From Miscanthus floridulus (lineage: Eukaryota > Streptophyta > Magnoliopsida > Poales > Poaceae): DNA of 64,000 nucleotides. The position numbers and the translations under genes are program-made. Positions 12,830 to 39,900 of this stretch are shown here, piece after piece. Where the stretch lies: contig NC_089586.1 of assembly GCF_019320115.1 (NCBI RefSeq), positions 3,496,804 through 3,560,803 on the forward strand. The letters run 5' to 3'. Numbering within the stretch: position 1 is the first letter of the stretch; each line of letters opens with the position of its first letter. A model generated the notes under the pieces. It was not told the origin of the DNA, did not search any database, and saw only the letters and a program-made list of their open reading frames with translations.

Positions 12830-12929
12830 NNNNNNNNNNNNNNNNNNNNNNNNNNNNNNNNNNNNNNNNNNNNNNNNNNNNNNNNNNNNNNNNNNNNNNN
12901 NNNNNNNNNNNNNNNNNNNNNNNNNNNNN
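12830..12929. other. Assembly gap of exactly 100 N
   Basis: One hundred consecutive N form a standard placeholder for a scaffold gap of unknown size. Order and orientation across it are therefore not proven by sequence. The base immediately after it starts a perfect copy of part of another L1 in this window. Confidence 0.98.
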
Positions 12930-15900
12930 CGGAGATCTTCCCAAGAACCGACCTTCAAGCATTAGCTTCGCTGGGCTCCGATCACTGCCCACTCTTTCTT
13001 CAGGGGGGTGTTGTTTTGGATTTCTATAGGGGTTTCAGATTTGAGGCGCATTGGGTACATATGCCAGGTTTCACTGAAATGGTACAGGAAGCATGGAATA
13101 GAGCGGTAAATACATAGGATGACATCTTGCGCATTCACGTCAAACTATAATACGTACAACAAAAGCGCTCAAGAACTGGAGGAGGAAATCTTTGGGCGGG
13201 CACAAGATTACTTGGGCAATTCTCAACATAACACTAGCCAATCTCGAGAGGGCTCAAGAGTCCAGAATTTTGACACCAGAGGAGTTAGAATTCAAGAAAT
13301 ACCTCAAGACAAAGGCACTAGGGATAGCAGCGATACAAAAGGCGAGAGCTCGACAACACTCGAGGCTTACTTGGATTCGGAAAGGTGACACAAACACGCC
13401 TTTCTTCCAATTGCATGCCAACATAAGGAGAAAGAAAACATTTATTGGTGCACTCAAGGGAGATACGAGCCTGGTGGTCTCGCAAGAGAATAAATCCATG
13501 CTCGCACATACACATTTCTCAAACCTGTTGGGGACGACAACCACAAGAACAAGAGCTATTAATAGGAGCGAGTTGGGATATGAACATCATGATCTAGAGG
13601 ATTTGGACGTGCCCTTCACAGAACAAGAGATAGAGGCTGTAGTGAAAGACATGCCTTCTGAAAAGGCACTGGGTCCGGACGGCTTCATCGGTGTGTTCTA
13701 CAAAAAATGCTGGTCAATTATAAAAGAGGACTTGGTCCAGGCGATCATGAGTTTTTACAATCACCGGACTGCGAGATTAAACTTAATTAACAAAGCAAAT
13801 ATCGTCCTGTTGCCCAAAATACAAGATGCAACATCTCTATCAGATTACAGGCCCATTAGTTTGATCAATAGTGTAGTCAAAATCATCACGAAAATCCTAG
13901 CAAATGGATTGGCACCACACTTGAACTCTTTAGTGTCACATGCTCAAAACGCCTTCATCAAGAAGAGATGTATCCATGACAATTTCATTTACGCGCAGAG
14001 AGTGATTCAACTGTTGCATATAAAGATAAGGTCGGCGTTGTTCATCAAATTGGACATTTCCAGAGCTTTCGACTCCATAGGTTGGAGCTTTCTGCTAGAG
14101 GTGCTACAGGCTTTGGGCTTTAGCACAAAATGGAGGGATTGGATAGCGGCCCTACTTGGAACAACAACATCAAAAGTATTGATCAATAGGGAGCCGACCC
14201 AGGGTATCAGACACGCACGGGGTTAAGGCAAGGGGATCCTCTATCCCCCCTTTTATTCATTCTAGCCATCGACCCACTACAACGGATAATTGAAGCGGCA
14301 GCACAAAGAGGGATCCTTAAACCGGTGCTACTGAAGACGGCTAATTTGAGGTGCTCCCTATATGCTGACGATGCAGCGATTTTCGCATACCATGCAAATA
14401 CAGAGTTGGATCATCTACTCAAGATACTAAACTTCTTTGGAGAATGCCCGGGGCTAAAAATCAACATCTCCAAAACAGAAATTCTCTATAAGAATGGACA
14501 ACACAGTGGTCTCTCAATTACTTCAAAATTTCCCCGGCAAGATTTGCAGTTTCCCTGGGAGATATCTAGGACTTCCTCTACACGTCCGGAAACTACGCAG
14601 GGAAGTGGTACAGATAGACAAAATAGGAGCTAGATTGCCAGGTTGGAAGAGCAGGCTCTTGTCTGCGGGGAGAGAGACTCTAGTAAAAACGGTTCTATCA
14701 TCTCAACCAATTTATCATATGACCGCATTCCCAGAACAAAAATGGTTAATCAGAAAGATCGATCGCTTGAGAAGGAGTTTCCTATGGAGGGGAGAAACGC
14801 CAGACAAGGTATATGGTGGGCATTCCATTATCAACTGGCCAACAACATGTAGACCCAAAGCGAAAGGTGGTTTAGGGGTTTTGGACCTTGAACGTTTCGC
14901 AAGAGCATTGAGACTACGATGGTTATGGTATCAATGGAAGCACCGAGATGGAGCTTGGAACAAGCTTGACCTTCCGGTAGACGGCCGGGACAAGGAGTTA
15001 TTTGTGGCTTTGACAGTGGTGACAGTAGGTGATGGCAAGTTGGCCAGGTTCTGGACGTCGTCTTGGGTTTGGTGGGCGAACACCGAAAGCGATTGCACCA
15101 ACATTGTTCAAGAAATCAAAAAGGAAAAATCTCACGGTGCAAAAGGCCTTGGAAGATAACCGTTGGATATCACATGTCATTCCATTAGGCACTGCACAAG
15201 AAGTAAGAGAATACGTAACCCTTTGGGAAGAGGTGAGCCAAATCCAGCTAATCGAGAATATAGAGGACAACATCCGTTGGCGTTGGACGGTGGATGGGGA
15301 ATACACAGCCAAAAGCGCCTACTGCATTCAATTCCAGGGCACATTCAGCAAACTGAAACTTCAACCGATTTGGAAAGCAAAGGCGGAACCCAAATGTAGA
15401 TTTTTTGCTTGGACTTTGCTGCATAAAAAAATCCTAACGGCAAACAATTTGATTAAAAGAAATTGGCCAAATGATCCAGTATGCAAGCTTTGTGGTATTG
15501 ACCCGGAAACACCGATACATATTTGCAAGGGTTGCACTTTCTCAAGGCAAGTTTGGTCCTTCAAGCGATGGTTCAGCCTATCGGTGATTGATACTGTTGG
15601 AATGACAGGATCCCTGCACAACTACGGGCAAAAGTGCAGAATTAAGATAGACAAAGATCAGAGAAAGGCGTTTGATGGCATTATGATCTATTTTTGGTGG
15701 AATTTATGGAAGGAAAGGAATCAAAGAACATTCCAGAACAAGTCGCTGCAGCTTAGTCAAGTGGCACTCCTTTGCAAGGAAGATATAGAGCAATACCAGT
15801 TGGCAACAAGATTTCATGCTGGACCACAACAAGAGTAGTTCTAGCATTTGTTGGTCACTGTTCTGTTGGTCTAGTTTTGTGGTTTTTTCGGTTTCAGGGT

Positions 15901-15985
15901 GTTTTTCTAGACTTTAGTTGTCGTCCAGGTGGGCATCTAGTTGGGTTGTCGGTCGGTGTGCTGTGGTGGCGGTGAGCTTGGTCTC
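12930..15985 (+). mobile_element. Truncated L1-type LINE (copy A), identical to 36023-39078
   Basis: It contains the ORF2 segment from the end of the endonuclease domain (SDHCPLFL) through reverse transcriptase (LPKIQDATSLSDYRPISL, DISRAFDSI, SLYADDAAIF) to the zf-RVT region (CKLCGIDPETPIH), ending at the stop 15836-15838 plus some 3' sequence. Several frameshifts (near 14212, 14500 and 15050) break the frame. All of them occur at the same places in copy B, at a constant offset of 23093. The copy starts at the N gap and ends abruptly at 15985, before the poly(A) end seen in copy B. It is either an assembly duplicate or a very recent duplication. Confidence 0.85.
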
Positions 15986-18900
15986 GATAATCTGTTTTGA
16001 CCGGCAAGAAATGAGCGGTCTTGGTAAGACGGTCCACAATTACCCAAATCGAATTATGTCCCTTTTGAGTAGTGGGCAAACCCATGATAAAATCCATGCT
16101 TATATCGTCCCACTTCTAACTAGGGACTGATAAGGGTTACAACATACCAGCAGGTTTCATGTGAATGGCTTTCACTTGACAACATGTGTCACATCTGACA
16201 ACATATGCTGTAATTTCTTTCTTCATTTTGGTCCACCAATAGCGAGATCTTAATTCTTGATACATCTTACGACTTCCGGGATGGATAGATAGCTTAGAAA
16301 GGTGAGCTTCATCCATGAGTTTATTCCTAAGCTCTCGATCCTTGGGAACCACAAGACGGTTGTCAAACCACAACACGCCCTGTTCATCCACTTTAAAGTG
16401 TTGAGACGGCTTCTCTTTTATTTTTTCTTTGATGTGGAATATCCCCTTATCGGTTTTCTGGCCTTCTATTATCTTACTTTCTAAGGAGCAACTAATCTAA
16501 ATACTATGTAACACAGCAGGATGCATTAGATCGAACCCATCTTCAAGTAATGGCTGCACATTCAAGAAATGTGACTTTCTGCTCAAAGCATCTGCCACTA
16601 CATTGGCTTTACCAGGATGATATTGCACATTCAAGTTGTAATCCTTTATCAATTCCAACCATCTACGCTGTCTCATGTTTAGCTCTGGTTGGGTAAAGAT
16701 ATACTTAAGACTCTTGTGATCCGTAAAAATATTGCACACATTACCAAGTAGATAATGTCTCCAAATTTTTAGGGCGTGCACAACTGCAGCAGGTTCAAGA
16801 TCATGTGTTGGATAGTTGACCTCGTGCTTTCTCAATTGACGTGATGCATAAGCAATGACTCTCCTTTCTTGCATAAGAACACAGCCCAATCCAGTCTTCG
16901 ATGCGTCACAAAACACATCAAATGGTTTCTTGATATCTGGTTGTGCTAGAATAGGAGCAGTGGTCAACAGTTTCCGCAAAGTGTGGAAAGCTGCTTCACA
17001 CTCCTCTGTCCACACAAACTTGTGATCCTTCTATAGGAGACTCGTCATCGGTTTGGCAATCTTCGAGAAATCTGGTATAAAGCGACGGTAATAATCGGCT
17101 AGTCCTAAGAAACTTCTAATCTCAGGAACTGTGGTCGATGCTTTCCAATTCATAACTTCTCGCACCTTACTTGGATCGACTGAAACTCCATTCTCTGATA
17201 GAATGTAACCAAGGAAAGGAACTTCCTTCAACCAGAATTCGCATTTGCTAAACTTAGCATATAATTGATGATCCCTAAGTCTGGTTAAGATAGTTCTCAG
17301 ATGCTCTTCATGATCTTTCTCGTTCTCGGAGTACACCAGAATGTCATCGATGAACACTACCACAAACTTATCCAATTCTAGCATGAAAACTATATTCATC
17401 AAAAACATAAAGTATGCAGGAGCATTTGTCAAGCCAAAAGACATGACAAGATACTCATACAACCCGTATCTGGTGGAAAATGCAGTTTTCGGTATATCCT
17501 GTGGCCTAATCTTGATCTGATGATAACCGGATCTTAAATCTATTTTTGAGAACACCTTGGCCTTGGATAATTGGTCAAACAGAACATCAATATGTGGCAA
17601 GGGATATTTATTCTTGATGGTCACAGCATTGAGTGGCCTATAATCTACGCACATTCTCAACGTGCCCTCTTTCTTCTTTTTCATAAACAAAGCGGGACAT
17701 CCCCATTCAGACTTGCTTGGCCGAATAAATCCCTTTTTTGACAAATCTTCTAATTGCTTCTTCAGCTCAGCTAACTCATTTGGAGGCATCCGATAGGGTC
17801 TCCTTGAAATCAGAGCTGTTCCGGAGACTAACTCAATTCCAAACTCAATCTCCCTATCTGGCGGAAGACCAGGTAGCTCATCCGGGAATACATCCAGGAA
17901 TTCACACACTACCAGAATCTGATGAATAGAAATGACTGCTATAGCACATGTAACACTTATAAGGTCTTTTCTCCGAGGCAATGGTACTTGGAAAGTACCC
18001 TCACCCAGGGGATCCTTAAGGGTAAGTACTCGACTTCCAGTATCTATGACTGCTCCCCAATCCTTCATCCAATTCATCCCTATAATGACATCCAAGACTA
18101 ACCCAGGCATAACTATCAAGTTCACTCGGAACTTCCTGCTACCTAATTCAAGGGTTGCCCCTCGAACCATCCGGTTGGTCAAAACATCAGCCCCTACTGA
18201 ACTTATACGGTAACCATAACCCAATTTTGTGCATAGTTGTTCATGTTTCTGTGCAAATGCTTGACTCATAAAAGAATGTGATGATCCATAATCAAATAGA
18301 ACAACTGCAGGGTTTTCGTTGACAGGAAACTTACCAGCAGTGACGGGCTCTCCCTCTAGAATTTCATCCACTGTTGTACTATGCACTCTAGCGTTATAAG
18401 TCTGTTGCTTCTTCTTAGGCGAGTATGGACAAAACCTCGAGAAATGGCTAGGTTGATCACAGTTATAGCAGGGTCCTCTTACTGTCCCGGCAGATCCTAC
18501 AGCTCCCTTGGAACTACATTGTACCGTAGTTGCGGCTGCTTTGTTGGGCTGTACTGCCATCTTGTACGGCTTTTGAGGTCCACGGAAATTCTGACTTCTT
18601 GGCTGAGGTGGCCTGAATCTAGCGCTAGGTGCCGATGGGCGATAAGGAGGACGACCTCCCATAGGTGCTCTAGCTTGCGACGGACCACCTTCAAAGGCTC
18701 TCTTGCGTGTCTTGGCTGTGGTGCTAGTGTTGTTATTCTTCTCCTGCTTCAGACAGTCGCTGATGAAGTCATTGAATCTGACGCGGTTGTTGGTACCAAC
18801 ATGCTTCATCATTTTTGGATTGAGACCCCTCTTAAAACTAGCTATTCTTTTAGCATCTATGTCAACCATGTCGGGAGCATAGCGACACAAGTTGTTGAAG

Positions 18901-19538
18901 GCATGCAGGTATTGCGTCACGGTTTTGGTGCCCTAGTTCAATGCTAGAAACTCTCCCAACTTCATCTCGGTCAGCTCGGGTGGAATATAGACTCCACGAA
19001 AGGCCTCAGCAAACTCTCTCCAAGAAATTTAAGCATTTGGAGGGAAGGTGGTGCGATGGTGCTTCCACCACATTCCTGCCGGTCCTTGCAATTGAAGTGT
19101 AGCATACTCCATTTTTAGAACCTCAGTCATCCTCAACACACGGAATTTATCTTCCATCGTGTTGATCCATTCCTCAGCATTGAGTGGCTCTATTGCTTCC
19201 TTGAATACTGGTGGCCTGGTGTCCATGAAATCCTTGAAGATGCTATATTGGTTCACTCCCATGCCACCACCTTGATTGTTACCACGTTGAACGTTGTTGA
19301 CGATGGTTCGAAGAAGATCCTCCATGTTCTTCTGGGATTGTTCTGCGTTGCGCTGACTCCCGAGCAGCTGTGCGAGGAACATCTCGAGGGTAAACGGGGG
19401 AGGAGGTGGCAAATGTGGTTCATGGGGAGGTTCATTGTTGTTGCCGTGGGTTCCACTACCACCACGACCAGTCCCCGCACCGTTGGCACCGGGCTCAGCA
19501 GCCTCATACGTGGTTCGACGAGTGTTTGTCATCTGCAT
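15986..19538 (-). pseudogene. gypsy gag-pol, broken by stops and truncated
   Basis: The polyprotein of the gypsy element starts at 19538 or the nearby Met (MTNTRRTTYEAA). The gag core carries stops at about 19031 (TAA) and near 18935 (TAG), and resumes in the same frame at 18920. A CCHC knuckle ([14 protein letters not shown]) follows. The protease motif reads FDYGSSHSF instead of the usual D-S/T-G, so it has lost the Ser/Thr. Reverse transcriptase shows [13 protein letters not shown] and FIDD. A TAG near 17035 precedes RNase H ([16 protein letters not shown]). The integrase zinc-binding region (HLSKLSIHPG, CDTCCQVK) lies at 16391-16137, and the core is cut at 15986. It is a decayed element gene, not a host gene. 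Confidence 0.82.
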
Positions 19539-19835: not shown

Positions 19836-20888
19836 TTACATGCCAACAAAAGAAAGGTCATCACGGCAGGACCTAGATACTAGTGCAAGGCAACTAGCGT
19901 ACTCCTCGGGGCCATCGTCGGGATCGGAGACGTCACCATCGCCCCCAGGTGAAACTGCAGGCTCGTCCTGGTTGTCGTCGTCGATGTCCATGCCAGCAGC
20001 GTTTGGTGGAGCATATGGGCCAACCCCATTGTAGAGCGCGTGAAACTCCTCGTGTAGGTTGCCGTTGTATTCCTCTAGCTCATCGACCCTCTGCAGCAAA
20101 AGATTTCTTGCGTTCCAGGCTTCATTCCTTTCCTGAACCAACTGTCCTATCATGCGGTCTGCATTGTTGTTGGCTTGAGTCAACGTATGCACTCGCTGCA
20201 TAGCTCTATCACCTCTCTCAACCACCTGATCTCGCTGTAAGTTCATATCAGCCAACTGCTCCTGCAAGCTAGCTATAGCACGTGCCTGTCTCTTCTTCTG
20301 CTTCTTCCCTTTGAGCTTATCCTCACTACATAAGCCAGTCAAAGTCTAGTAGGTACTCTCGAGACCCTCATATGCTCTGATGGCGGCGAACATAGCACTC
20401 ATTGCCTGGTTGTCGCTAGCCTATCCTTCAGCTGGACCTCGGACCAAGGCACTTCCCTGAGGCTGAACCCAAATGGCATCACGAGGATCATCCCTAGGAA
20501 AAGTACCAGCTAGAGCTGCTGCAAGCTCACTGGGAAATCTGCTCATAATGTCTCTGATGACACAGAAGGCTACTCCCTCTACACCCTCAGCTGGAGTGCG
20601 ACCCTCAAACTCCAAGTGCCAACCATCCCAATCTGGAGCATCACCGAGAGCAGGAACCGTGATCTCCACTACTGCGAGTCCATCCTCTGCTAACTGGCTC
20701 TCATTCCAAGAGTACACCGGCTCTTGACCCTCTGGGTACCCCACATCATGGAGCACTCTCCAAAGCAAAGTTGGCATGCCAAACTTGCTCAAGAAGGTGT
20801 CCGTGGTGCGGTGCTCCCTCAGGGCCAACGGACGTCGATGTGCTCTTCCTCCGGTGGACTTATGGGCGGTCTGCTTCGTGCGGGCCAT
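19836..20888 (-). pseudogene. gypsy orf0: histone H3-tail-like N-terminus followed by a coiled-coil region
   Basis: This reading frame lies between the primer binding site and gag. From the ATG at 20888 it begins MARTKQTAHKSTGGRA and continues HRRPLALREH. Against the conserved H3 tail (ARTKQTARKSTGGKA...) 16 of the first 21 residues after Met are identical, including R2, T3, K4, Q5, K9 and S10; R8 is His and K14 is Arg. The first segment is 155 residues (stop TAG 20423-20421). After 25 more codons there is a second TAG (20348-20346). The frame then runs on to 19836 with a basic patch (KGKKQKKRQAR) and a heptad-rich helix (ASLQEQLADMNLQRDQV...). An acidic tail closes it. No known domain follows the tail, and it is not a histone gene because the histone fold is absent. 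Extra frames upstream of gag are known in some rice gypsy elements; the function is unknown. Confidence 0.75.
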
Positions 20889-20951
20889 CTGTAGCAAAAG
20901 TTCTTTTATTACCTTAGGGAAACATATTTTAGGTGATACAACTTTTATCAA

Positions 20952-21660: not shown

Positions 21661-21676
21661 CCATGCTCCGATACTA
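21661..21676 (-). other. Primer binding site (initiator tRNA-Met type) of the gypsy element
   Basis: On the minus strand the site reads TAGTATCGGAGCATGG. It differs at a few positions from the usual plant TGGTATCAGAGC(C)TGG. Its place directly inside the LTR supports the call; the mismatches fit age. Confidence 0.6.
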
Positions 21677-25566: not shown

Positions 25567-28093
25567 TCATCAAATAATCTAATAAATCACCAACAACTTG
25601 AATTATAGCACTTGTATGTTGATAGCACTTGAACTTCACTCAATTTGTCATGGCATTGGGTTTGGATGTGCACTAGGCTTCATATCTTGATTCAATATAT
25701 AATGATTAATATGAGATCAATTGAATCAAGCCTCCAATGCCGATGGTACCTACAAACTATCATCCACTTTTTGATGGTACCCAAATAATTTTGGGTCCTC
25801 TCAAGTTAGGAGCAACATACTTAGGCAATACCTTATTATGAGTAGTAGGATGTTTTGCAATAGCAACCATAGAGGTACCATTACCATCCTTTCTAAGCAC
25901 ATTATTATTAATAATTGAAATAGGCTTAGAAATATCACCTAGGGGACATGAATGTGCCATGTGTCCCATTTTCTGGCATGAGTAGCACTTTCTCTCTGCT
26001 TGAGCCTTCTCTTCTTTGCTCATGTGGTGCTTCTCATTGCCTTGCCTCTCATGGATTGCTTGAGCCTTCTTCTCAAGCTTGGTAGGACACTTAGAGGTAA
26101 AGTGTCCTATACTTCCACACTTGAAGCACTTAATGTGAGCATAATATTTCTTCTCATCTTTATTCTTGCTCATCATCTTGGCATCTTGAGTTTGCATTGG
26201 ATGCCTTGCCTTTCCACCCCTTCTTATTTTCTTTTTCTTTATCATCAAATCACCACCATCTTCATGGTTGATCTTGATTTGCTCTTAGGGTGTCTTCTCT
26301 TGCTCAACTTGTGGCTTTAGTTAAGACTTCACTTGTTGCTTCACCAATTGCTTGGTTGAGCACATTGAGGTAAGATGACCCCAAATGCGGCACTTGAAGC
26401 ACTTCACATGCCTTAGCCTCTCTTCTTCTTTCTTCAACTTGAGCTTTTCTTCATTGGGGCAACCATTTGCAAGATGTCCCACTTTATGGCACTTGAAGCA
26501 CAAAAAATGAGAGAGCTTCTCTTGTTCTTGCTTTTTCATCTTTCTTTCATATCTTCTCTTGCCCCATCTGTTGTCCTTGATCTTGCTCTTGTTGAAGCCA
26601 ATGCCAGTTATGTCATTACGGTTTTCTTGATGATTGACTTTGCTAGTCTTGAAGCCGACTTCACTCTTATCATCAAAGTTTCTTTGAGTCTTCAACATAT
26701 GCTCAAAGGTGACTTAAGAGTTGTAGTATATCTCTAACTTGTTGCTCAATTTCTTCACTTGTTTATTTAGCTCATTGTTCTCCTTCAAAAGGTTAGTCTC
26801 ACAAGACATAGAAGTAGAACAAGCATCTATATGTGAAGAGCATGACATATCTAATAAATCATCACAATAGGTGGATACATGCTTCTTGCCTACATCACAA
26901 GGGTTAGCAATAATATATAATTGATCAATTGACCTATGTGATGAACTCTTATTATTTTTAAGTTTCTTGATAAATATTTTAATGAGAGAAATATGTTATT
27001 CTAATAATTCATTATGAGATGTAAGTAGTGTCTCATAATTCAATTTAAGCTCATCATGTGAAGATTTATAAGCATCAAGTAAGTCTTTATGTTCTTCACA
27101 ATAGTTCTTTAGAAATGAGTTTTCATTTTCTAATTTCAATGTTTTAGCTTTTTTATTTTCTAAAGATATGGTCATGCTAGCAAGTCTACTAACAAGCTCA
27201 TTATATGAATCAACATGATCAACCACATTATCATACTGTCCATACTCTACGGGCGGACACTCCACCGATGGAGTTCTGAACCCTTCTCACCTCCGTTCCA
27301 TCGCCGAGTTGATCCATATTAACTCCAACTTCATCTTCTTTGTAAATATGCCAACACCACCAAGTGTACACCACCATATGTATGCGTGTTAGCATTTTTA
27401 TAATCATTTTTCAAAGGATTAGCTACTCAACTTGCCACGCCACTCAATCCTAGCGACGATGCAAAGTTAAATCACTCAAGTGGCACTAGATGACCGATAT
27501 ACAAACAAGTTTGCCCCTCTTGATAGAACGACCATCTATCCTAAACCCGGTCATAAACTTCTCTACACACCTATGACCGGTGAAATGAAATGCCCTAGGT
27601 TATACCTTTGCCTTGCGCATTCTATTCCATCTCCTCCAATGTTGATGCAACACATGCACCAACATGATCAACAATGATATGATCCACTTCATATCATCGC
27701 GTGATCATATTGGTTCATCGATCTTGACATCACTTGCTTTTCACCGTTGCCTTTGTCCATCGGCGCTAGGTCTTGCTCAAGCTTTACCGCCACGCGGTCC
27801 ATCGCTCCAAAGCCTCCGACTTGCCCTTCACGCTTGCAACCGGTCCATCAAACCAAGTCTTGTCTTGATCTTCTCCACCTTGATCACATGACTCAATGTC
27901 ATGTCTCACGTGTAATGAGCTCCTTCATCATCACATGTGTGAGCTTTGCAACATCTCCAAGCCATTTTCACCTTTATGTCATATGTTGCTCACATATATG
28001 TACTTGTGGACTAATCACCTGTGTATCTTTCATAAACACAATTAGTCTACCTAGGTTGTCACTCAATTACCAAAACCACACAAGGATCTTTCA
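25567..28093 (-). mobile_element. Truncated SIRE/Maximus-like Ty1-copia fragment (5' LTR plus part of gag)
   Basis: On the minus strand the LTR starts at 28093 (TGAAAGATCCTTGTGTGG, then a 'ttggtaattgagtgacaacc' segment familiar from grass copia LTRs). The sequence then runs into gag remnants (27265-25760) and is cut at 25566, where the gypsy LTR begins. The gypsy element therefore probably landed in this one. The LTR/internal boundary near 27.3 kb is not defined; a small dyad (actccatcggtggagt, 27269-27284) lies there. No protease, integrase or reverse transcriptase of this element is present. Confidence 0.6.
25760..27265 (-). pseudogene. copia gag remnants with multiple CCHC zinc knuckles
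   Basis: Three minus-strand segments run in order. A helical, Asn/Glu-rich piece (27265-26996) comes first. Then a segment with CFKCHKVGHLANGC and CFKCRIWGHLTSMC (26698-26321). Then a segment with CFKCGSIGHFTSKC and CYSCQKMGHMAHSC (26248-25760). Repeated knuckles separated by Lys/Glu-rich linkers are typical of SIRE-type gag. Stops and missing N-terminal sequence show it is a relic. Confidence 0.65.
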
Positions 28094-28348
28094 CCCGCCA
28101 GCACGATGCGCGAGGAGAGGTGAACCTGCGGGACGAAGCCGCGTCGAGGTGGCAGCCACGACGACGTCCACCTACGGGGGGCAGCAGGGGCCAGCTCGTG
28201 GATGTGTGCCACCGTCCAGCCGACGCATCGGCCATCGGTGGAGCCCATGCAGTTGGATCTAGTGGAGATAGGGAGGCCTCGCGCTGGATCCACCTGCTCG
28301 CTGTAGATCCGTCGCCTCCGTTGCCGGCGCGAGCTCCACGTCGTGCTC
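28094..28348. repeat. Left half of a GC-rich segment paralogous to 49.6-50.3 kb
   Basis: From about 28265, phrases such as 'cgctggatccacctgctcgc' and 'cctccgttgccggcgcgag' recur in nearly the same order at 49637-49690. The segment is split from its right half (from 29099) by the TRIM. No protein could be recognised on either strand. Confidence 0.55.
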
Positions 28349-28621
28349 TGTAACGTCCCGCCTCTCTAAGGCCGGGCCCGCTTATATCTGGTAGCTTCTT
28401 TATGATATAGACTGCCCTCACAGACCAACACAGGTCTTTTCTGCGCACTTTGTCCTCACTCGTGCGCACCCGGGAAGAACTTCCCGGTCGATCACCCATC
28501 GCTCTAGGCCAAGCACGCTTAACCTCGAAGTTATTTGCAGATGGGCTTCCGGAAAAGAAGTTGCAACTTATTGGTATAAGTATCCTATTAATCCTGTTAA
28601 GCCCTGGGCCGAGATGTTACA
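28349..28621 (-). repeat. TRIM 3' LTR
   Basis: 273 bp, TG...CA ends. On the minus strand it is preceded by a purine-rich tract (ttaagggggtgagga) that fits a polypurine tract. Confidence 0.9.
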
Positions 28622-28809
28622 TCCTCACCCCCTTAAGAGATCGACGTCCTTGTCGATCAATCCCAAGCCAGGAGCGTCCTCTCTTAGCCACGTCCGTGTG
28701 TCCAGAGCCAGCACATGTGCCATGCTGTGTGACCACGCCGGATCCACATCAGCCATGCACACCATGCCTGCGCAACTACAACACACGCGCCCGTGAAACC
28801 GCAAGAGTT

Positions 28810-28822
28810 GGCTCTGATACCA
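28810..28822 (-). other. TRIM primer binding site
   Basis: On the minus strand it reads TGGTATCAGAGCC, complementary to the 3' end of initiator tRNA-Met, three bases from the 5' LTR. Confidence 0.9.
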
Positions 28823-28825
28823 TTC

Positions 28826-29098
28826 TGTAACGTCCCGCCTCTCCAAGGCTAGGCCCGCTTATATCTGACAGCTTCTCTATAATATAGACTGCCCTCATAG
28901 ACCAACACAGGTCTTTTCTGCGCTCTTTGTCCTCACTCGTGCGCACCCGGGAAGAACTTCCCGGTCGGTCACCCATCGCTCTAGGCCAAGCACGCTTAAC
29001 CTCGGAGTTATTTGTAGATGGGCTTCCGGAAAAGAAGTTGCAACTTATTGGTATGAGTATTCTATTAATCCTGTTAAGCCTTGGACCGAGATGTTACA
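28826..29098 (-). repeat. TRIM 5' LTR
   Basis: 273 bp, the same length as the 3' LTR, differing by scattered substitutions that are mostly transitions. Confidence 0.9.
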
Positions 29099-29730
29099 TG
29101 CTCCAGCCTCAGATCCGCCGCCAGGAGGGGCCCCATGAGCAGCCGCTTCAGATCCACTACCGAGGTTGCCGACATGACCTCCCCGTCGTCATCCACGCGC
29201 CACCATGGAGGCCACTCTGCCGCTAGAGCCCTCGGCCGCGTCAAGGCCTCCGCTGGCTGCCCGCACGGCCGTGGGGACGATCAGCGACGGAGGGGTGAAA
29301 CCCTAGGACGCGCAACCCTCTGGCTTGCGTCGTGAGGAGGAAGTGGCATGGTGGAGGGCGAGGAGGAGGAGGAGGAGGAGGAGGGTGGCCATCATCGCGT
29401 GGAGGGCCAGCCACCGCCGAGGTCGCCCCACGGCGTCGTCGAGGTCACGTCGCGAGTGGGGAGCGAGGGAGGGAGCGTACAGGAGAGAGAGGGACTGAGA
29501 AGTTTCCTGAAGGAGAATCAGGAGCTCGAGTATATATTTGCTCCACCGGATTCGCACGAGAAGCCGCAGAAGCTAGCAAAATCAACCTAGAGCGACGAGG
29601 AGCCGACAGAAGCTGATTCCAACAGAAGCGGCTACAAGAAATCTGGGCCACACGTCGAACGATCGGACGGCCAGGGGAATTCGGGGCGACGTGGACACCC
29701 CGAGAGGCGACCAAACTCTCCTGCTTTGAT
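29099..29730. repeat. Right half of the GC-rich segment paralogous to 49.6-50.3 kb
   Basis: It continues the left half across the TRIM. Shared phrases include 'cctccccgtcgtcatccacg' (29169-29188 and 49780-49799) and 'gaaaccctagg' (29298 and 49899). A (GAG)n microsatellite at about 29361-29383 has a counterpart near 49963-50000. The composition and Ser/Pro-poor frames do not reveal a product; it may be the first exon and promoter of a duplicated gene or a captured fragment. Confidence 0.5.
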
Positions 29731-33900: not shown

Positions 33901-36900
33901 AACCTGTGGATGGGTCTGCAGGTGGATCAGCTTCACGGCATGGTGGTGAGCTCTCCTACTGTACACTGCCCGAACTTACAGTTTCCTTGCAAGCACAGAG
34001 TAGTTTAGATCCTCCTACTATGTCAGTTGAAAGCCAATCTCTGTCACCAGAGACATCCACAGTTGCTCAGACTAGTCAAAACACGTATACAATACCTGTG
34101 CCACCTGAGCCCACATCTGCGCACATCCAGCAAGATTATGTCAACCAATTTGTTTCCATTGATGATCAGTCTAGCCGAGAGTTAAATAATAACAACTCTG
34201 GAAACAACTTTACACTGATTGACAGTTTCTTACATACAATTTCGAAACCCATTATGCAACCTTTATTAGGGGGGGGGGGCTGCACACACCATTCACTCAC
34301 ACCAAGAACACCACAAATAAGAGTTGGAATATCAGTCCACCACCAAATTCAAGTAAAAGAAAAAGCACTAGACTAGCAAAGAAAGCTGCACATTCGGGCA
34401 AAGATGCGATTCAGATTGCCCAAGAATTGTTAGTAAAGAAGCTAGGGGAACTGTCGGGTGAGGACACTACTCAAGATACCCCTGACATCGATTTTTATGT
34501 GCAGCACTTTGACCAGCCAATCGAAAGTGCCAAGATGGAGGCCATCAAGATGCTCATTGAGCAGGAAGCCAAGAAGCAGAAGACAAGCGCCATCCAGAAG
34601 AAGGCTGCCGTGGCTCCGGCCATGGAGGCTTAGGCGCTGGTCATGAGGGGATCAAGTAATCAATGTTAACCCCTTCAGGCAAGGGGTTTAGGGCGATACG
34701 CCCTATATATCGTAGGTTTCGTCATATTAGTAGAGCCCTGCGTGGCTTCTTCGGGGCTGTCATGCCCATGTTCGAACCTTTGAGACTTATGTGGTCGTAC
34801 GCCTACTGGCCATGGAGCCTTCGGCGCTGCGCCTGCTGGCCTCGTTGCCTTCGGCCCTGGATTAGTAAGCACAAGACCGAGAACTTGGGGAAGGACTCTG
34901 GCCTGCTGGCTCTGTTGCCTTCGGCCATCCCCGGGTTGCTTGGAGATCAACGTAGGTCTTCCTTCAGATGGACAAGCTGGTTATCGATGTTAATTGTTGT
35001 TTCGGTTAATTATGTCAACCAAAAACTGTAACATCATCTGCTGGAATGTGAGGGGGTTGAACGATGGAGCAAAACGAGCGACATTACGTAATCAGATCTT
35101 ATCCACAGGTGCGACGCTTGTATGCCTACAAGAAACAAAAATCACCACTTGGAACCAAACTCTTTTGACAGAGACAGCAGGAGCAGATATGGCAAATAAC
35201 GCTGTCTGTCTTCCATCAATAGGGGCTTCCGGCGGTATCCTGATTGCGGCGTCAGAGCGCTTCTTCAGGATTCAGCAAACAAGCTTAACGCCAAACACAG
35301 TCACTGCAACGATCACCATGCTCGCAGAGAATACATCCTGGTCCATTACCGGAGTCTATGGCCCCTAGGCCGATGCAGATAAAATCGCTTTTATGCAAGA
35401 AATCTTGGACCTGCGGCAGCATGTCCTTCCAGCATGGCTACTGCTAGGGGATTTTAACTTAATTTACCAAGCACAAGACAAAAACAGTGCACACATCAAT
35501 TTGTCAATGCTCAATAACTTCAAGTACGCCATTGATAATCTAGGGCTTGCACCGATTGACCTACAAGGCAAAAGATTCACTTGGTGTAACGATCAGCAGA
35601 CACCCACAATGACCAAAATAGATCACATGGTTGATGGATAAGTCTCATGTGTGGCTGGTCTTTGTGGGGCTGTGCTGCTCACATGGTTCTTGTGGCTGTT
35701 TTTCTGTTTTTAGGACAGCATCTTAGACTAGAGGACAGCATCTTAGATGACAGCATCTTAGACTAGAGGACAACATCTTAGCTAGGACAGCATATTAGCA
35801 TCTTAGACTAGCATCTTGGCATATGCTTGGCTGGCTAGCAGCCTATAAATATGTAACCCCAACCCCTCAAGTTGGTATGGCATTTGTTTGAGTTTGTGTG
35901 AGAAATAGACAAGAAAATTGCCCCAACTTCTAGTGTCTATCCTCTTTCGATGAGAGTAAGAATTCTCCTACTACCAAGAGTGAGAATTCAGCGACTAACA
36001 ACGGTCGCTTCAACAGAATGGTCGGAGATCTTCCCAAGAACCGACCTTCAAGCATTAGCTTCGCTGGGCTCCGATCACTGCCCACTCTTTCTTCAGGGGG
36101 GTGTTGTTTTGGATTTCTATAGGGGTTTCAGATTTGAGGCGCATTGGGTACATATGCCAGGTTTCACTGAAATGGTACAGGAAGCATGGAATAGAGCGGT
36201 AAATACATAGGATGACATCTTGCGCATTCACGTCAAACTATAATACGTACAACAAAAGCGCTCAAGAACTGGAGGAGGAAATCTTTGGGCGGGCACAAGA
36301 TTACTTGGGCAATTCTCAACATAACACTAGCCAATCTCGAGAGGGCTCAAGAGTCCAGAATTTTGACACCAGAGGAGTTAGAATTCAAGAAATACCTCAA
36401 GACAAAGGCACTAGGGATAGCAGCGATACAAAAGGCGAGAGCTCGACAACACTCGAGGCTTACTTGGATTCGGAAAGGTGACACAAACACGCCTTTCTTC
36501 CAATTGCATGCCAACATAAGGAGAAAGAAAACATTTATTGGTGCACTCAAGGGAGATACGAGCCTGGTGGTCTCGCAAGAGAATAAATCCATGCTCGCAC
36601 ATACACATTTCTCAAACCTGTTGGGGACGACAACCACAAGAACAAGAGCTATTAATAGGAGCGAGTTGGGATATGAACATCATGATCTAGAGGATTTGGA
36701 CGTGCCCTTCACAGAACAAGAGATAGAGGCTGTAGTGAAAGACATGCCTTCTGAAAAGGCACTGGGTCCGGACGGCTTCATCGGTGTGTTCTACAAAAAA
36801 TGCTGGTCAATTATAAAAGAGGACTTGGTCCAGGCGATCATGAGTTTTTACAATCACCGGACTGCGAGATTAAACTTAATTAACAAAGCAAATATCGTCC

Positions 36901-39900
36901 TGTTGCCCAAAATACAAGATGCAACATCTCTATCAGATTACAGGCCCATTAGTTTGATCAATAGTGTAGTCAAAATCATCACGAAAATCCTAGCAAATGG
37001 ATTGGCACCACACTTGAACTCTTTAGTGTCACATGCTCAAAACGCCTTCATCAAGAAGAGATGTATCCATGACAATTTCATTTACGCGCAGAGAGTGATT
37101 CAACTGTTGCATATAAAGATAAGGTCGGCGTTGTTCATCAAATTGGACATTTCCAGAGCTTTCGACTCCATAGGTTGGAGCTTTCTGCTAGAGGTGCTAC
37201 AGGCTTTGGGCTTTAGCACAAAATGGAGGGATTGGATAGCGGCCCTACTTGGAACAACAACATCAAAAGTATTGATCAATAGGGAGCCGACCCAGGGTAT
37301 CAGACACGCACGGGGTTAAGGCAAGGGGATCCTCTATCCCCCCTTTTATTCATTCTAGCCATCGACCCACTACAACGGATAATTGAAGCGGCAGCACAAA
37401 GAGGGATCCTTAAACCGGTGCTACTGAAGACGGCTAATTTGAGGTGCTCCCTATATGCTGACGATGCAGCGATTTTCGCATACCATGCAAATACAGAGTT
37501 GGATCATCTACTCAAGATACTAAACTTCTTTGGAGAATGCCCGGGGCTAAAAATCAACATCTCCAAAACAGAAATTCTCTATAAGAATGGACAACACAGT
37601 GGTCTCTCAATTACTTCAAAATTTCCCCGGCAAGATTTGCAGTTTCCCTGGGAGATATCTAGGACTTCCTCTACACGTCCGGAAACTACGCAGGGAAGTG
37701 GTACAGATAGACAAAATAGGAGCTAGATTGCCAGGTTGGAAGAGCAGGCTCTTGTCTGCGGGGAGAGAGACTCTAGTAAAAACGGTTCTATCATCTCAAC
37801 CAATTTATCATATGACCGCATTCCCAGAACAAAAATGGTTAATCAGAAAGATCGATCGCTTGAGAAGGAGTTTCCTATGGAGGGGAGAAACGCCAGACAA
37901 GGTATATGGTGGGCATTCCATTATCAACTGGCCAACAACATGTAGACCCAAAGCGAAAGGTGGTTTAGGGGTTTTGGACCTTGAACGTTTCGCAAGAGCA
38001 TTGAGACTACGATGGTTATGGTATCAATGGAAGCACCGAGATGGAGCTTGGAACAAGCTTGACCTTCCGGTAGACGGCCGGGACAAGGAGTTATTTGTGG
38101 CTTTGACAGTGGTGACAGTAGGTGATGGCAAGTTGGCCAGGTTCTGGACGTCGTCTTGGGTTTGGTGGGCGAACACCGAAAGCGATTGCACCAACATTGT
38201 TCAAGAAATCAAAAAGGAAAAATCTCACGGTGCAAAAGGCCTTGGAAGATAACCGTTGGATATCACATGTCATTCCATTAGGCACTGCACAAGAAGTAAG
38301 AGAATACGTAACCCTTTGGGAAGAGGTGAGCCAAATCCAGCTAATCGAGAATATAGAGGACAACATCCGTTGGCGTTGGACGGTGGATGGGGAATACACA
38401 GCCAAAAGCGCCTACTGCATTCAATTCCAGGGCACATTCAGCAAACTGAAACTTCAACCGATTTGGAAAGCAAAGGCGGAACCCAAATGTAGATTTTTTG
38501 CTTGGACTTTGCTGCATAAAAAAATCCTAACGGCAAACAATTTGATTAAAAGAAATTGGCCAAATGATCCAGTATGCAAGCTTTGTGGTATTGACCCGGA
38601 AACACCGATACATATTTGCAAGGGTTGCACTTTCTCAAGGCAAGTTTGGTCCTTCAAGCGATGGTTCAGCCTATCGGTGATTGATACTGTTGGAATGACA
38701 GGATCCCTGCACAACTACGGGCAAAAGTGCAGAATTAAGATAGACAAAGATCAGAGAAAGGCGTTTGATGGCATTATGATCTATTTTTGGTGGAATTTAT
38801 GGAAGGAAAGGAATCAAAGAACATTCCAGAACAAGTCGCTGCAGCTTAGTCAAGTGGCACTCCTTTGCAAGGAAGATATAGAGCAATACCAGTTGGCAAC
38901 AAGATTTCATGCTGGACCACAACAAGAGTAGTTCTAGCATTTGTTGGTCACTGTTCTGTTGGTCTAGTTTTGTGGTTTTTTCGGTTTCAGGGTGTTTTTC
39001 TAGACTTTAGTTGTCGTCCAGGTGGGCATCTAGTTGGGTTGTCGGTCGGTGTGCTGTGGTGGCGGTGAGCTTGGTCTCCCGTTGTTTGTTGTAATTCTTT
39101 TTTCTTGTTCCTTTTTGCTCGTCTAATAAAAATCCGGCAAATCTCTTGCCGCCTTTCTAAAAAAATATTTTGCTTCAGAGCTTCAGATTGACGACTCTGT
39201 CGAAGGATTGACTACTGAGGTGTCTGTGTTAGTGTTTTGTTTGACGACGAAGCATCTACTTTCTAATTGTCGATCAGGCTCAGGCCCACTAAGCGGCAAT
39301 CCTTTTTAATAAACCCCTATCTGATAGCATGCTATGAATCTCGGTCAATGTTTGAAAATCAAGTTCAGTGCTACCATCATAGTTCATTTCTCACACCATT
39401 GTGCTGAACTTTTGCATTTTAGTATGACTGATTAATTGAGAAAATTCAAATTTGCGCAGGAGCTTTTGTGCAAGTGAAGTGCCAGGGAAGGTAATTGTGT
39501 CCTGACGCTGAACCATTTATCATCTGAGTTCTCAGTTTGTGCATTCTATTCCATGAATTGTTTCAGTGTGTAACTTATTCTTCATTTGTGCAGAGTCTTG
39601 CAGGGGCACCACCTGAGCTTGCATTAATTGTTTTTCATACCCATGGACCTTTCAACGGTATGCCTTATAGTTTATTGTGCATTCAACCAAATGTGCGATT
39701 TGTGAACATTTTTGCAATGTAGCTTTTTGTGTGCAGCGAAGTGGATGGACAAAAGATATTGATGCTTTCCTATCATGGTTATCTGGAATATCATTTAGTG
39801 GTCGAGGATTTAGTGAAGTTCCTATCTGTGAAGGTCTTGCTGAAGCACTGATGGTATTGACCTGTTATAGTTGTTTAAAGTTTCTAGTTCCATGTGGCTA

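Follow-up and report, generated by a model that had tools for sequence, protein, structure and literature searches.

We analysed a 64,000-nt stretch of the Miscanthus floridulus genome (contig NC_089586.1, positions 3,496,804 to 3,560,803; hereafter the window), which contains the remains of a retrotransposon with an extra open reading frame (ORF), ORF0, that begins like the N-terminal tail of histone H3. The frame is opened by an ATG at 20888 on the minus strand, on which all parts of the element lie, and starts with MARTKQTAHKSTGGRAHRRPLALREH. The H3-like tail comprises 24 codons (20817..20888, i.e. the interval 20823-20888 of the first-pass annotation plus two codons) and has the length of the first coding exon of the split H3 genes of the host. 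It is followed by a fast-changing linker (residues 25-36, 20781..20816; substitution counts were measured on residues 23-36), a predicted domain of the order helix, three strands, helix that resembles a double-stranded RNA-binding domain (dsRBD; residues 37-130, 20499..20780), a long coiled coil (residues ~160-290, 20019..20411; helix 157-296 in the model of a relative, P0011), which is interrupted by a stop in the window copy, and an acidic C-terminal end (residues ~291-329, 19902..20018; charge counts on two siblings). Immediately 5’ of the ATG stands TTGCTACAG (20889..20897), which is similar to a 3’ splice site and is exact in 62 of 71 aligned copies. Downstream of ORF0 and in the same direction lie a gag start region (19029..19538, named from its position, Pfam giving no match), a weak zinc knuckle (E 0.023), protease and reverse transcriptase (together 17031..18920, Pfam), RNase H (16497..17015, Pfam) and the start of an integrase (15986..16496), which is cut at the junction 15985/15986. 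ORF0 is therefore an extra ORF of a Ty3-type element. The window copy of this element is dead: its ORF0 contains two in-frame TAG codons (20421..20423 and 20346..20348) and has lost the stop that its siblings have after residue 329, and its integrase is cut.

The start of the window ORF0 agrees with H3 at 16 of 21 positions after the Met (17/22 when the Met is counted), as the first-pass annotation had stated, and siblings reach up to 20/22. Of all 22-mers in the window that start with an ATG (n=2564), the second best matches H3 at 9/22, and of all six-frame 22-mers (n=127868) at 8/21. When the residues of orf0 were shuffled 20000 times, the match never exceeded 9/22, and a phmmer search of the PDB sequences with orf0 returned H3 tails as top matches (E 4.8e-4, query residues 1-23). 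The same annotation had described a retrotransposon ORF that precedes gag, opens with a mimic of the H3 tail, continues with another domain and a coiled coil and lacks the histone fold, and this description held: Pfam revealed no histone fold in ORF0 up to an E of 1, and the structure models give a dsRBD-like fold instead. Since it has no histone fold domain, ORF0 is not a histone.

To survey related copies, the same 2.68-Gb genome was searched with the unbroken 155 residues of the window orf0 (8515 first-look candidates, 150 scored) and with P0011, a 326-residue relative from a JGI source (12811 candidates, 123 scored). All 150 scored copies of the first search align over residues 1-155 with 94-100% identity. 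Those found with P0011 show 45-51% identity, their alignments start at query residue 1-4, and every one has at least one stop, as read from the table; they represent older subfamilies, which we named B and C. The possibility that relatives exist without the H3-like start had been raised at the outset. Judged by the alignment starts, there was none among the 273 scored genome copies (150/8515 plus 123/12811 candidates). An unbroken ORF0 of 329 residues was present in 30 of the 40 window-type copies examined (17/23 and 13/17), most of which had been chosen for long frames. The exact DNA pattern of TTGCTACAG plus the codons for MARTKQTA occurs 750 times in the genome, and 0 times when reversed. 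A 40-kb unplaced contig with a copy 100% identical to the query (L008 and L009; G000 C7 and C1797) is probably a duplicate or the second haplotype of the window.

For the alignment, 71 copies were used (41 of subfamily A, 25 of B and five of C). The usual family start, MARTKQTARKSTGG, is exact in 30/41 A, 10/25 B and 0/5 C copies, and the best B copies go on with RAPRHQLA, thus matching H3 at 20/22. K4, K9, S10 and G13 are unchanged in all 71 copies, and other tail residues are kept in nearly as many (T6 and L20 in 70, A15, P16 and A21 in 69, T11 in 68, A7 and G12 in 64). The remaining lysines are replaced, K14 by R in 67 copies (K in three, S in one), K18 by R in 41, H in 29 and Q in one, and K23 by R in 68 and C in three; Q19 is P in 44. 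With K4 and K9 staying lysine while K14, K18 and K23 become R or H, the tail should be methylatable but not acetylatable at the latter sites. The histidine at position 8 of the window copy, which had been proposed to favour K4-type readers, is not a family trait, since most copies have R here (58/71, with H in 11). As P16 is kept in 69/71 copies, H8 and H16 of the window copy are decay-type changes.

Outside this genome, the tail is present in all database relatives that reach it, which are three of 15 (P0011, P0013 and P0015). P0011 and P0013, which come from other sources, start with MARRRLTA(H/R)KSTGG, while in P0015 MARTKQTAHKSTGGRAPRHQLA lies within a called frame that departs from that of ORF0 shortly downstream. 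The other 12 are called from an inner Met or from further in, and are uninformative on the tail.

Selection on the tail was evaluated by Nei-Gojobori counts in the 71 copies, with codons 2-22 as tail, 23-36 as linker and 37-130 as core. Between A and B, the tail differs by 9.4 synonymous differences per 17.6 sites and 4.7 nonsynonymous differences per 45.1 sites, corresponding to a ratio of nonsynonymous to synonymous change (dN/dS) of 0.12. Overall, about half of the synonymous sites of the tail differ between subfamilies versus 10-15% of the nonsynonymous ones. The dN/dS of the tail is 0.12, 0.14 and 0.17 in the three comparisons, and that of the core, where computable, 0.144 (A-B) and 0.139 (B-C); with synonymous sites near saturation these ratios are rough. 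The proportion of changed nonsynonymous sites (pN) in tail, linker and core is 0.104, 0.455 and 0.315 for A-B, 0.147, 0.324 and 0.295 for A-C, and 0.137, 0.428 and 0.199 for B-C. Thus, pN is lower in the tail than in the core whichever subfamilies are compared, and the linker exceeds the tail by a factor of 2.2 to 4.4. Judged from these counts, tail and core appear about equally constrained by dN/dS, and the tail more strongly by pN.

Where the tail may come from is suggested by the H3 genes of the host. The genome has intronless and split H3 genes, and in all nine split genes sampled (L100-L108) the first coding exon ends directly after codon 24 (..LATK|gt). In three of them (L102-L104) this exon directly follows TGCAG (TGCAG|ATG). 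The likeness of ORF0 to H3 reaches no further than residue 24, which is R in 68/71 copies, and residues 25-31 mostly differ between subfamilies. Identity of the 9-nt TTGCTACAG site is 0.98 for A-B, 0.78 for A-C and 0.76 for B-C, and that of the preceding 50 nt 0.21-0.48; in the window, 49 of 2567 ATGs are preceded by CAG. Because the H3-like stretch corresponds to the 24-residue first exon and a CAG precedes the ATG as in three of nine host genes, the simplest reading, and a likely one, is that the element captured such an H3 exon along with the splice acceptor in front of it. Beyond these 24 codons and the CAG|ATG, the best ORF0 copies and the host exons have in common an identical start and 20/22 residues. 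They differ in that the ORF0 tail is not followed by a histone fold, continues in frame into an unrelated protein and has K14, K18 and K23 replaced. A caveat is that the second ATG of gag (19532) also follows ..atatgcag, as it does at 21 of the 22 loci where it was located (..tag at the other), so that an acceptor before an ATG may be a habit of the element itself. In DNA, five representative tails are identical to 23 host H3 starts at 43-55 of 66 nt, and the representative tails of the three subfamilies to each other at 51-55 of 66 nt. With the identity to the host no higher than that between subfamilies, the capture would be at least about as old as the subfamily split, and no single donor gene can be picked out. 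Apart from the question of origin, ORF0 and Gag may arise from alternatively spliced mRNAs, as both ATGs directly follow a sequence similar to a 3’ splice site. Stop-bearing H3 copies are also found in the same genome (G000 C15:2561175, C17:76135952, C2:28696265 and others).

The element can be placed by its other parts. In a sibling (L036) the integrase is followed by a chromodomain (PF00385, E 0.003, under the Pfam cut-off), a region missing from the truncated window copy. Tekay-type elements have a tRNA-Met-type primer site and, as in Retrosat2, long terminal repeats (LTRs) of ~3 kb. No LTR pair was recognised within the window, and the closest primer-site match near orf0, TAGTATCGGAGC at 21676, has two mismatches. 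The Tekay-type traits found are a Ty3-type pol with integrase and then chromodomain (in L036) and a sense extra ORF preceding gag, a trait of only part of the clade, and on the basis of these sequence traits we regard ORF0 as an accessory protein of a Tekay-like grass chromovirus. It shares the sense ORF preceding gag, the part of mixed helices and strands with a long helix, and the chromovirus pol with the ORF0 or 5’ extra ORF (5’ aORF) of Retrosat2, RIRE3, RIRE8, FRetro3, maize Tekay and sorghum Sb7. According to the accessible part of PMC3485330, ORF0 is carried by Retrosat2, RIRE3, RIRE8 and relatives, was not found outside grasses, and has a function not assignable by homology. The known ORF0s span 7.6 to 90.2% identity (accessible part of PMC3485330), so some Tekay-type ORF0s may be without the tail. 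For grass 5’ aORFs a nuclear location was predicted, those of maize and sorghum had a low-scoring likeness to a double-stranded RNA-binding motif (DRBM) protein (TM 0.35-0.37), and modulation of silencing was suggested (excerpts of PMC11728184, a 2024 sunflower paper). There is no instance of the word "histone" in the accessible text of PMC3485330, PMC11728184, PMC7264820 and PMC13317346, among them reviews on extra ORFs and gene capture. By title or abstract start, no description of an H3 tail in a retrotransposon was found among the open-licence PMC papers listed; priority is not settled by this.

Beyond the tail, ORF0 is predicted to consist of a dsRBD-like fold, a coiled coil, which is probably dimerising, and the acidic end. 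The order alpha-beta-beta-beta-alpha of the core is that of predicted structure models only. Compared with the dsRBDs of DRB4, DRB7.2, HYL1, TRBP and DCL, ORF0 is without a sequence family match and without the RNA-binding lysines, and has a histone tail and a coiled coil in addition.

The influenza protein NS1, which has an H3-like end, is a viral histone mimic, and the known viral and LIG1/WIZ-type H3 mimics are short motifs. Like the viral mimics and the H3K9-like mimics LIG1 and WIZ (excerpts of PMC10611923), ORF0 has an H3K9-like motif in a non-histone protein. It differs from them in that the likeness covers the whole length of an H3 exon, stands at a predicted N-terminus, belongs to a plant transposon and is present in several subfamilies.

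Near-identity to H3, at least three subfamilies, few replacements amid many synonymous changes, an exon-like extent and the predicted dsRBD-like fold are the computed features from which an interpretation can start. They indicate that the tail is real and very probably H3-derived and selected, and they leave a mechanism that is sharply testable. We propose, with a probability of roughly 0.5, that ORF0 presents a captured H3 tail as a mimic, on a scaffold of the RNA-silencing type, and acts on writers or readers of methylation at lysine 9 of H3 (H3K9). A host H3 gene would have supplied the first 24 residues through its first coding exon, and selection would retain them as a histone-tail mimic. 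Proteins starting with Met-Ala normally lose the Met, and the free H3 N-terminus is the form needed by many H3K4 readers. Translation would begin at the tail ATG, and removal of the Met would expose a free, flexible A-R-T-K-Q-T-A-R-K-S-T-G-G in front of the dsRBD-like domain, the coiled coil and the acidic end. This tail could be methylated at K4 and at K9, which is adjoined by S10 and T11, and would escape acetylation at the replaced K14, K18 and K23. In the nucleus, the dsRBD-like part might lead ORF0 to the RNA of the element or to DCL/DRB-type proteins, and the tail would be offered to H3K9 writers or readers, which we take to be of the plant SUVH4/KYP, CMT3, SUVH or SHH1 type. As a result, silencing of the element by dimethylated H3K9 (H3K9me2) and RNA-directed DNA methylation (RdDM) may be blunted or diverted to ORF0. 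Since A7-(R/H)8-K9-S10-T11-G12-G13 is common to the genome family, P0011, P0013 and P0015, the partners to consider first are writers or readers of H3K9, and we see about an even chance that the target is among them; K4 partners seem less likely for the P0011 and P0013 lineages. A role as anti-silencing decoy or adaptor on the H3K9me2/RdDM system, for which the chances appear balanced, is ranked above targeting and above a mere import signal. More tentatively, and at somewhat less than even odds, the whole course of events may have been capture of an H3 first exon with its splice acceptor, fusion to a dsRBD of the DRB/DCL kind plus a coiled coil, and long use as an anti-silencing protein, the soluble tail of which, methylatable at K4 and K9 and not acetylatable at K14, K18 and K23, links element RNA to H3K9me2/RdDM. 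Plants silence transposons via H3K9 methylation and small RNA. The tail that is written and read in this process is the one of which ORF0 has a conserved copy, on a scaffold whose predicted fold resembles the dsRNA-binding proteins of the small-RNA system, such as DRB and DCL. If the proposal is true, it offers a direct way to study how abundant grass elements coexist with silencing, and a protein of no known function gains a testable biochemical hypothesis.

Several observations weigh against this proposal. In subfamily C, Q5 is changed in three of the five copies and none has the exact 14-residue match. P0011 and P0013 have R in place of K4, which together with the R8 of most copies also disagrees with the K4-type readers suggested earlier. 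The called frame of P0015 extends 64 residues upstream of the tail Met. In seven of the 15 database relatives (P0001-P0004, P0009, P0010 and P0014) the call starts with an inner Met, at MPT(L/F)LW, and in five others it starts deeper inside the protein, so that a tail-less isoform is possible. The tail window ranks only 3rd (A-B), 11th (A-C) and 6th (B-C) of 130 for conservation, and the most conserved stretch in all three subfamily comparisons is residues 32-52. The A and B tails are nearest in DNA to L107/L108, host exons without CAG|ATG. In dsRBDs, RNA is bound by a basic KKxAK motif where helix 2 begins; by eye, ORF0 lacks it and reads like GRTPxEGAxxAAF at this position, and no Pfam dsRBD family is matched by the core. 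Further, ORF0 proteins were modelled as metabolic enzymes in the accessible part of PMC3485330. Finally, when copies of one subfamily are compared with each other, dN/dS is higher in their tails than in their cores (0.34 vs 0.09 in A, 1.33 vs 0.41 in B).

This last point bears on whether the tail is a functionless captured H3 fragment carried along neutrally, or a product of chance or convergence. Plant LTR elements commonly capture host fragments (excerpts of PMC13317346), and the faster collection of replacements in the tail than in the core within subfamilies is what such a fragment would show. However, about half of the synonymous sites have changed between subfamilies while the residues are mostly kept, and nothing comparable to the H3 match occurs in the window or in the shuffles, so that we consider this explanation already disfavoured and very improbable. 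The expectation that a mere relic would evolve neutrally is thus contradicted between subfamilies (dN/dS 0.12-0.17) and not within them. The higher values within subfamilies are likely, though this is not proven, to reflect CpG methylation decay of inserted copies, because the tail is rich in CpG (per 100 nt 12.1 vs a comparison figure of 2.0 in A, and 6.6 vs 2.3 in B) and most of its variable sites are transitions (14/16 in A, 18/27 in B). As far as such counts allow, an H3-like motif in a non-histone protein appears to be conserved by selection between subfamilies, although dN/dS is not low within them, and we hold with high confidence that the tail is H3-derived and selected.

A selected tail need not act as a histone mimic. 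It could be retained merely as a basic stretch for nuclear import or nucleic acid binding, the likeness to H3 being an accident of its origin. Charge is kept where R replaces K14, K23 and, in subfamily A, K18, residues 1-36 contain nine K/R versus three D/E (two copies), and the nuclear location predicted for grass 5’ extra-ORF proteins (PMC11728184, in part) would fit. But the uncharged A7, S10, T11, G13, P16, L20 and A21, kept in 64-71 of 71 copies, vary no more than the basic residues, and every one of the 71 genome copies retains lysine at K4 and K9 despite the replacement of K14, K18 and K23, which makes this explanation unlikely. To a similar degree we doubt a function in targeting, in which the methylated tail would be bound by the chromodomain of the element’s own integrase or by host H3K9me readers and tether the integration complex to heterochromatin. 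The sibling chromodomain and the binding of H3K9me2/3 by the chromodomain of the fungal element MAGGY (PMC3350952, in part) are in line with it. However, the sibling chromodomain is by eye of plant type II, a type without the first cage aromatic and, in most cases, without the third, for which no ligand was found (accessible part of PMC3350952), and no link was seen between ORF0 and integrase.

Some observations concern the surroundings of the element. The junction that cuts the integrase is that with a 3056-bp segment, of which a second copy with 100% identity is present 23 kb away (12830-15985 and 36023-39078); one copy abuts a run of 100 N, and this looks like a scaffolding duplication. Inside the duplicated segment (13192-15838), plus-strand ORFs resemble by eye the reverse transcriptase of a non-LTR element (long interspersed nuclear element, LINE). 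Another minus-strand element is probable at 25760-29103, where zinc-knuckle-like ORFs (by eye) and a 280-bp repeat pair were observed, and an exact tRNA-Met-type primer-site match lies within it at 28822. Outside the window, seven loci (L001-L007) are eukaryotic H3 or H3-like genes in contigs of metagenome-assembled genomes filed under bacteria.
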